Of a stretch of DNA of 64,000 nt, positions 3,926 through 14,877 are shown piece after piece. The DNA comes from a virus. The notes below the pieces were generated by a model. That model saw only the letters and a program-made list of their open reading frames with translations. It was not told where the DNA came from and ran no database searches. How positions within the stretch are numbered: position 1 is the first letter of the stretch; every line of letters starts with the position of its first letter. The DNA lies in IMG/VR virus record IMGVR_UViG_3300029922_000038, positions 1-64,000 of that record; one strand, 5' to 3'. Position numbers and translations under genes: made by a program.

Positions 3926-4105
3926 GGTTCTGTATTATTAAACACAAAGTACAAGTGGTAATTTAAGTGTAAAACTAAGCCATGTATAATAATTATCTAC
4001 TAAGTAGATGTATGTTATAAGACAATCTAAAGACTATATTATATGTACATATCAATATAGGTGAGTCAACATCTTGCAAAGACTTAAATTATATAATACA
4101 GAACC
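3926..4105 (+). ncRNA. 180-nt structured RNA candidate
   Basis: GGTTCTGTATTAT (3926-3938) is a perfect 13-bp inverted repeat of ATAATACAGAACC (4093-4105). The enclosed 154 bases have no credible ORF but contain further short inverted repeats (for example CTACT/AGTAG near 4000). It lies 40 bases before the next gene. Its nature is unknown. Confidence 0.4.
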
Positions 4106-6985: not shown

Positions 6986-7337
6986 GGGGATGATATTGGA
7001 TTTGACAGTATTCAAAGGATAAATTTTGATATGCGTAGTTTAATAAATACTACTAAAACAGTATTAAAAGTCTTAATTGACAAATCATTAGTAAGTAAAT
7101 TAGCTGCTGAAGCAGTTGCTAATTGCAATTCAGATTCCAGAATCTATAAAACTGGCACTGTTGTAGAAACAGAAGCTTTTGAATTAGTAGCTTAAACTAA
7201 TTTAATCCTCTACTATACAGAGTAAGGTATAGATAGGTTTTGTAAATTTCTTAGCTTAAAAATTTATAAGAAGCATATTAATCCAAAATTAAAGTATGTT
7301 TATCTGGACCTGGGGTCGCAGCCCAGCATCTCCACTA
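6986..7337 (+). ncRNA. ssrA: Transfer-messenger RNA (tmRNA)
   Basis: tmRNA frees stalled ribosomes by adding a degradation tag. The 5' end GGGGATGATATTGGATTTGA is the classical tmRNA start. The 3' end has GGAC, a 5-bp T-stem (CTGGG/CCCAG) and CATCTCC, which pairs with GGGGATG, then A and CTA instead of CCA. The T-loop is GTCGCAG rather than TTCRANY. A reading frame ends with VVETEAFELVA and a TAA that lies in the loop of AATTAGT/ACTAATT, as tag stops do in helix H5. That frame is open back to an ATG at 7031, so the resume codon cannot be fixed by eye. A pk1-like fold (GTAGT/ACTAC, AATACT/AGTATT) lies near 7036-7066. Confidence 0.9.
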
Positions 7338-7371: not shown

Positions 7372-7443
7372 AGTCTATTAGTTTAATGGTTAGAATAGGG
7401 GATTGTCTATCCCTTGATGAGAGTTCGATTCTCTCATAGACTG
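7372..7443 (+). tRNA. tRNA-Asp (anticodon GTC)
   Basis: The acceptor stem AGTCTAT/ATAGACT is perfect. The D-arm is GTTT...GAAT, the anticodon stem GGGGA/TCCCT has loop TTGTCTA (anticodon GTC at 7405-7407), the variable region is four bases, and the T-arm GAGAG/CTCTC has loop TTCGATT. The discriminator is G, and CCA is not encoded. It lies 35 bases after the tmRNA and is probably co-transcribed with it. Confidence 0.92.
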
Positions 7444-7480
7444 CAAAATTAGTCATTTGCGTAAGAATAAATAACTAAAC

Positions 7481-13858: not shown

Positions 13859-14641
13859 ATGGAATACAAAGATTTAGATAAAAGTGGAGTTTATACAATT
13901 ACAAATATTGTGAATGATAAAAAATATGTAGGTAGTACAATAATGAGTTTTCAGAAAAGGTTTGCTCATCATTTATCTATGTTAAGAAATAATAATCATA
14001 AAAATAGATATTTACAAAATTCTTGGAATAAGTATGGAGAACAAAATTTTAAATTTGAAATTTTAGATATTTGTGAAAAAGAATTTTGTTTATCTACAGA
14101 ACAATATTGGCTAAATATATTAAACTCTACAAATAAGTCTATAGGATTTAATATAAATCCATTAGCAACTGGGCCAGATAAAAGTCCAGAAACTATTGAA
14201 AAAAGAAGACAATCTATATTAGAAAATTATAGAACTGGTAAAATGGTTTCTTTTTTTAAAAAAGGTTTTACTCCCTGGAATAAAGGACAAAAAATGTCAC
14301 AGGAACATTGTGACAAATTAAAATCCTCCGCAAAAGGAAGAACTATGTCAATAGAAGCTAAAGAGAATTTAATAAAAAATTATAGAAAAGATATGAATCA
14401 CATTCTTGTATATGCTCAAAATAATGAGATTATAGGAGAATGGAATAATATTTATGAGCTTAGTGAATATTCAGTTAATAATAATATATTAACTGAATTT
14501 ACTGGAAGATTTAAAAATGGAAGAAAAGGGAAGCCTATTCATTATTTAAGTGCATTTCATATACATAGAGCAGCTATAGGAAAAATTGATTCTTACAAAG
14601 GTCTTATTTTTAAATATAAAACAAGCCCCCTAATAGAGTAA
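13859..14641 (+). CDS. GIY-YIG homing endonuclease (intron-encoded)
   Basis: This 260-residue enzyme makes the break that spreads the intron. GVYTI (GIY) and KYVGS (YIG) lie at about residues 11-27, then the conserved Arg in FQKRF, and a catalytic Glu probably in LSTEQYWLNIL. Downstream are NUMOD3-like DNA-binding segments (GPDKSPETIEKRRQSI and PWNKGQKMSQEHCDKLKSS) and a NUMOD1-like segment (ILVYAQNNEIIGEWNNIYEL). All expected parts are present, so it is probably active. It lies wholly inside the group I intron. Confidence 0.92.
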   Translation: MEYKDLDKSGVYTITNIVNDKKYVGSTIMSFQKRFAHHLSMLRNNNHKNRYLQNSWNKYGEQNFKFEILDICEKEFCLSTEQYWLNILNSTNKSIGFNINPLATGPDKSPETIEKRRQSILENYRTGKMVSFFKKGFTPWNKGQKMSQEHCDKLKSSAKGRTMSIEAKENLIKNYRKDMNHILVYAQNNEIIGEWNNIYELSEYSVNNNILTEFTGRFKNGRKGKPIHYLSAFHIHRAAIGKIDSYKGLIFKYKTSPLIE

Positions 14642-14877
14642 TCTATTAAGGGAATTGGGTGAATTGCTGGAAAGCTAAGTAGAAATATAAGCTAATCAGC
14701 AGCCAAGCTAAATTTAAGTTAAAAGAATTTAGAAGGTTCAGAGACTACAGGGGTGAGCTTAACAATAATCTCCTGCACGAGTGCCCAACATCCTAAATTT
14801 AGGATGATGATATAGTCCGAGCTATATAGAAATATATAGAATATAGAGATAAAGAACTCTATAGATAACAAATACTG

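Follow-up and report, generated by a model that had tools for sequence, protein, structure and literature searches.

Introduction

Phage-encoded tmRNAs are well known (PMC4131195, PMC9004378, PMC11915505), and in other phage lineages they are found in the mycobacteriophage Bxz1 group, in Bacillus phage G and in Melnitz (PMC4131195, PMC9004378). It has been proposed that phages carry them to keep ribosomes working and to recycle host protein (PMC9004378). The commonest tmRNA tag length overall is 10 residues (PMC11915505). The searchable papers mention phage tmRNAs without discussing the length of their tags, and no paper on long phage tags was found among the openly available papers searched, which is no proof of novelty.

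Among crAss-like phages, the gut Suoliviridae cr114_1, cr125_1, cr10_1 and cr50_1 carry tmRNA genes that are already annotated as SsrA. Unlike the gene described here, these are permuted two-piece genes with tags of 12–14 residues (GNFYVTDYTRIAA type). That the RF00023 matches in gut crAss phages are cross-hits to tRNAs is ruled out, since annotation and ARAGORN identify the majority of the top matches as genuine permuted tmRNAs. A tag core DYT recurs in the permuted genes (L451–L454, L132–L135, L137; tags GNFYVTDYTRIAA, GNTSYVMDYTRLAA, DNYNVVDYTHVA), and inside one of them (L453) ARAGORN also calls a tRNA-His.

Closer in form is the one-piece tmRNA of Cellulophaga phage phi14:2 (Crassvirales, Steigviridae; NC_021806.1 from about position 4031; L457 701-1172), the tag of which, GNDTDNTQLKANMTVVHNILNGSDALIGSSVQKLAMVA, has 38 residues and a hydrophobic end in VA, like the tag of our gene. 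Both genes fall under the Rfam cut-off, phi14:2 just so with a score of 46.0, but the phi14:2 tag is unrelated in sequence and belongs to the ANM tag family, and the T-loop is canonical. The best full-length match is a tmRNA on a crAss-like contig with a crAss-like TerL (L047, IMGVR_UViG_3300046011_006653), which is 59.9% identical over RNA positions 69–352 and has a tag of 39 residues ending in ELELV; it differs by a canonical T-loop and a score of 92.8 bits, and the similarity between the two tags is not significant (71/300 shuffles as good). The tmRNAs of Bacteroidota bacteria (GENNYALAA type) have the same D-domain form TTTGACAG, a resume codon near RNA position 94–100 and an unencoded CCA, but a canonical T-loop and, in 86 of 99 cases, a 9-residue tag.

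A divergent one-piece tmRNA gene in a crAss-like phage

The window, i.e., the whole stretch of 64,000 nucleotides that was analysed, belongs to a virus record of 89,352 bases. Its TerL, portal and MCP match crAss-like PHROGs (phrog_6681 with E 1e-122, phrog_6547 and phrog_11589) and a 1442-residue protein has a crAss muzzle domain (crAss_MUZ, E 1e-41), from which follows that the phage, as judged from its proteins, is a divergent member of Crassvirales. The phage order and the TTTGACAG D-domain together suggest that the host is probably a member of Bacteroidota. The genetic code is standard: opening TAG or TGA yields almost no extra coding coverage, and this rules out stop-codon reassignment. 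No other record found has a TerL more than 46% identical to that of the phage, except for one identical fragment. Searches with DNA polymerase or with TerL singly returned no relative or just this fragment, and in the scanned collections there was none by T-loop or by exact 5' end. Alignment-guided TerL searches gave relatives at 41–46% identity; among 97 such records, many of them fragments, a full tmRNA occurs only in G043 and an RNA with only the tRNA-like domain in G009. The collections hold no close relative. Elsewhere in the window there is a group I intron at 14593–14839 (Rfam, 121 bits), the 5' part of which is overlapped by an open reading frame (13859–14641) that encodes a GIY-YIG endonuclease domain.

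The gene has 352 bases (Table 1). ARAGORN calls a tmRNA at 6986–7335, and in 150 shuffled copies of the window with dinucleotides preserved (9.6 Mb) it calls none. The RF00023 model covers 6986–7337 over its full length (model positions 1–374; 29.4 bits, E 3.6e-10), and the fold of the whole RNA is better than 100 of 100 shuffles (z −3.0). The gene is collinear and one-piece, and the match to the permuted model RF04321 is restricted to the shared 3' domain. The initial annotation had read this stretch as a phage-encoded tmRNA, and the ARAGORN call, the full-length alignment and the empty shuffles bear this out: the gene is a real tmRNA of a divergent one-piece form. The elements named there are all in place, i.e., the loop GTCGCAG at 7315–7321, ACTA at 7334–7337, FELVA followed by TAA, KLAAE, and ATG at 7031. 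The covariance search suggested as a check gave a divided answer, since the model aligns over its full length with a small E value but the score is short of the curated gathering score of 47 bits, so that a search at this threshold misses the gene. The score is also lower than that of all relatives scanned (46–98 bits). The shortfall is a matter of annotation cut-off and no biological feature, and it has a practical consequence, in that the cut-off passes over both this gene and that of phi14:2.

Table 1. Features of the tmRNA gene and its surroundings (window coordinates)
Feature	Position	Strand	Basis
One-piece tmRNA gene (ssrA)	6986..7337	+	ARAGORN; RF00023; shuffles
Acceptor stem, 5' strand GGGGATG	6986..6992	+	pairs with 7327-7333; sequence, RF00023 alignment
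D-domain ATATTGGATTTGACA	6993..7007	+	sequence; Bacteroidota pattern comparison
PK1: GUAGU/ACUAC (7035-7039/7049-7053) and UUAAUA/UAUUAA (7040-7045/7062-7067)	7035..7067	+	pseudoknot scan; RF00023 alignment
Tag reading frame, 38 codons, resume codon GAC	7079..7192	+	PK1 spacing; RNA position
P5-like hairpin AATTAGCTGCTGAAGCAGTTGCTAATT, -9.4 kcal/mol, with LAA|E at the would-be end of a 10-residue tag	7098..7124	+	aligned with P5 by RF00023
Hairpin or pseudoknot enclosing stop TAA 7193-7195	7179..7205	+	folding; pseudoknot scan
Pseudoknot-like element 3' of stop	7208-7232	+	47/500 shuffles as good; weak singly
Pseudoknot-like element 3' of stop	7241-7274	+	31/500 shuffles as good; weak singly
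T-arm, stem CTGGG/CCCAG, loop GTCGCAG (7315-7321)	7310..7326	+	sequence; phage tmRNA ends; collections
Acceptor 3' strand CATCTCC, discriminator A73, then CTA (CCA unencoded)	7327..7337	+	sequence; Bacteroidota comparison
tRNA-Asp (gtc), immediately downstream, CCA likewise unencoded	7372..7444	+	ARAGORN; Rfam search

The tRNA-like domain

The acceptor stem is paired at all positions, the discriminator A73 is the A at 7334, and the stem contains G3-U70, the wobble pair read by alanyl-tRNA synthetase. The D-domain (GGATTTGAC) is followed by no anticodon arm but by the long helix P2 as a joint. Its form TTTGACAG is the common one in Bacteroidota, and the pattern GGGGNTGNNNTGGNTTTGACAG matches almost exclusively Bacteroidota in genome_contigs. 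The tRNA-like domain together with P2 is stronger than in 497 of 500 shuffles (3/500 as strong), while the P2 duplex by itself is equalled by 46 of 1000.

The T-stem has five perfect pairs, but its loop departs from the TTCGANN consensus, with G at position 54 and C at position 58 where the consensus has T and A. Neither base is found in any of 119 other phage tmRNA ends, these being the matches to a T-arm pattern left open at positions 54 and 58, and a T-arm with this loop has no other match in viral_contigs and genome_contigs. The loop, which had been singled out as odd from the letters alone, is therefore one of a kind in everything scanned. Another non-consensus form, ATCGATA (A54), occurs in the phage tmRNAs of L029 and L038.

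The 3' end ACTA, which had been contrasted with ACCA, is on the other hand no special feature. In the 99 Bacteroidota tmRNA genes, A73 is mostly followed by bases other than CCA, and the gene is an ordinary one without encoded CCA, as are these and the adjoining tRNA-Asp. The mature RNA probably consists of 6986–7334 with CCA added after transcription.

PK1, the resume codon and the tag

PK1 is compact. In the pseudoknot scan, 32 of 500 shuffles gave a pseudoknot as good as PK1 taken by itself; RF00023 aligns the same stretch with PK1. The position of the resume codon in a tmRNA is set by PK1 at a fixed distance. From this follows that the tag has 38 codons from GAC at 7079, and not the 54 back to ATG at 7031 over which the initial annotation had found the frame open; this ATG is ruled out as a start, as it sits in helix P2 just 5' of PK1. 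The GAC lies 11 nucleotides past PK1, at RNA position 94. In 90 bacterial tmRNAs, nearly all from Bacteroidota, and 29 phage tmRNAs this gap is mostly 10–12 nucleotides, and the resume codon is at RNA position 94–100 in most Bacteroidota tmRNAs. GAC is the first tag codon elsewhere too (L002, L066, L351, L408 and L040). The tag so defined is DKSLVSKLAAEAVANCNSDSRIYKTGTVVETEAFELVA, with the small hydrophobic end ELVA within FELVA and the in-frame stop TAA at 7193–7195; the pseudoknot zone around the stop (7170–7218) is equalled by 2 of 500 shuffles.

ARAGORN places the start at RNA position 121, giving a tag of 29 residues. This is ruled out, since the start would be 38 nucleotides after PK1 instead of the usual 10–12. 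The call is 27 nucleotides too late here and late also in other long-tag RNAs, so that annotation practice is affected by misplaced tag starts in many of them.

Long tags in bacteria and other phages

Among 99 Bacteroidota tmRNAs the tag has at most 10 residues in 92, 9 residues in 86 and more than 16 in only 3. The predicted tag of 38 residues is about four times the usual Bacteroidota length, and the idea of a longer tag than normal, raised from the letters alone, has held. In other Crassvirales and Bacteroidota phages, tmRNA tags have 26–39 residues with sequences conserved within families. A scan for phage tmRNAs with a Bacteroidota-type 5' end gave mostly long tags that fall into families conserved in protein sequence, exemplified by the ANMNKVFSLL, TMTFEDAMAFV, ETLGLVRE, SQSERVEEG and IMSIPTSL types. 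Tag families of about 21–39 residues, each conserved as protein, are represented by L348, L350, L380, L056, L351, L346, L354, L368, L370, L382, L393 and others; short host-like tags (GENNYALAA, GETNYALAA) are few among the ARAGORN-called tmRNAs of the scan. A strong crAss-like TerL is present in 16 of 38 tmRNA-bearing records examined. Judged by these sequences, long tags appear to recur among the tmRNAs of this phage group, and the window phage is not alone in having one.

The ANM family is the best sampled. With corrected starts, its tags have 30–38 residues in 19 loci, and among its cultured phages phi14:2 has 38 residues, Flavobacterium phage Fpv1 35 and Calle_1 30. The tmRNA genes of phi14:2 and Fpv1 are absent from annotation; the Fpv1-type tmRNA (L458 701-1115) is matched in 29 Flavobacterium phage records. 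When codons differ between family members, the difference is synonymous in 201 of 661 cases in the tag frame, the counts for the two remaining frames being 108 of 670 and 57 of 662; this enrichment fits selection on the peptide, in a test complicated by overlapping RNA structure and by relatedness. The window tag lacks the ANM motif, which in this family goes with a downstream hydrophobic segment, and it has no significant similarity to any of 14 other tags. L113 and L116, which BLAST ranks highest against the 3' half of the gene, were rejected: they have the T-arm in common with it, but a 5' half as in one-piece tmRNAs is not convincingly present.

Proposed function and alternatives

Directly visible in the sequence are the tRNA-like ends, PK1, a frame of 38 codons that opens 11 nucleotides past PK1, and, within a hairpin further on, a TAA that closes this frame. 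We think it probable that the gene gives this crAss-like phage a functional, if divergent, one-piece tmRNA with a 38-residue tag. The host AlaRS would charge the RNA via G3-U70, and the host SmpB would bring it to ribosomes stalled on broken mRNA; a search of the phage record for an SmpB of its own found none. Translation would resume at GAC 7079, and the stalled protein would gain the tag ending in FELVA, marking it for proteolysis of ClpXP type. Most likely, the phage tmRNA would then replace or supplement that of the host during infection and rescue ribosomes. As to tag length, which is the least certain step, the preferred reading is that a degron-like C-terminus is kept while a family-specific spacer or binding segment changes adaptor, protease or rate.

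In E. coli ClpXP, the terminal Ala-Ala is most important and degron length affects engagement (PMC7652416). FELVA differs from this key dipeptide, so that weaker degradation is possible, and a Val-Ala end on a tag of 38 residues could alter the degradation rate or the protease used. The suggestion in the initial annotation that rescued peptides are redirected away from host proteases is not supported: the end FELVA is similar to those of other phage tags (ELALA, ELELA, EVAVAA and ELAFAV), which makes this reading disfavoured. More tentatively, and with less than even probability, one may propose that Bacteroidota phages, crAss-like ones included, have repeatedly evolved family-conserved tags of 26–39 residues that give rescued proteins another fate than the host 9-residue tag, through adaptor, protease or slower turnover; the window phage would then have one of the longest tags and, in structure, the most divergent one-piece RNA among those compared, with a T-loop that functions although the T54-A58 pair is missing. 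Long family-conserved tags suggest phage-specific selection on the tag itself, and not a mere loan from the host, and cultured long-tag phages (phi14:2 on Cellulophaga baltica, and Calle_1) make the question testable.

Against a working tmRNA stand the lack of a close relative, the lowest Rfam score, a T-loop off the near-universal consensus and the lack of a similar tag. One way to account for the low score, the T-loop and the LAAE is decay, in which drift has altered both the stop codon and the T-loop of an RNA no longer in use. However, pairing is perfect in the acceptor and T stems, PK1 and the resume spacing are intact, and the frame is open with a normal end, which makes decay quite improbable. 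Rather more credence, though still well short of an even chance, can be given to a recent loss of the stop codon. In the ancestor, a 10-residue tag DKSLVSKLAA would have ended at a stop in P5, as in E. coli, and after a change from TAA to GAA, ribosomes would now read on through P5 and across the PK2 region as far as the stop in the later hairpin; such an RNA, with its lengthened tag, may still be functional. The internal KLAAE, which had been noted as a normal LAA-stop turned into LAAE, is exactly positioned for this: the LAA codons 7100–7108 are codons 8–10 and GAA 7109–7111 is where the tag would have stopped, in a hairpin aligned with P5 that 17 of 1000 shuffles equal in stability when the first 60 nucleotides are considered (75 of 1000 when the entire tag region is). 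The canonical tag is one base change away, and G043, a phage with a TerL 42% identical, has a tag of 16 residues. Yet tags of 30–39 residues are common among related phages and carry no LAAE remnant, so that a recent stop loss is not needed; and the extension leads to ELVA, an end of the kind seen in phage tags. When 129 other tmRNAs were read beyond their stop, 37 were open for at least 28 codons, so that the 28-codon extension here could be open by chance, and 5 ended in A preceded by A, V, L, M or I, but none did both, a conjunction that was chosen after inspection of the data and is suggestive only. Whether or not a stop was lost, today's tag most probably has all 38 residues.

The same base enters in another way if the consensus or assembly of this metagenomic contig is wrong at 7109 and masks a canonical DKSLVSKLAA tag. 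The two readings differ by this single base and no second record over the site was found in the scanned collections, but at least two further errors would be needed for the T-loop, and long tags are normal within the group; such an error is very improbable. Hardly more probable is that the RNA serves as a sponge for SmpB and so blocks trans-translation in the host. This has been proposed for an RNA of mycobacteriophage DS6A that consists of the tRNA-like domain only (PMC4131195, PMC11915505) and is reported to inhibit tmRNA. A sponge needs neither PK1 nor resume site, frame or stop, all of which the window gene retains. In favour of the sponge, besides DS6A, is the domain-only RNA of the crAss-like relative G009, which resembles that of DS6A. 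This 77-nucleotide RNA (L221 1501-1577; G009:C1:17310-17386, IMGVR_UViG_3300030333_005071) lies directly 3' of the TerL gene on a crAss-like contig, and matches both ends of RF00023 with 46.4 bits and has no tag; an RNA of the same kind is seen at L150 2456-2532.
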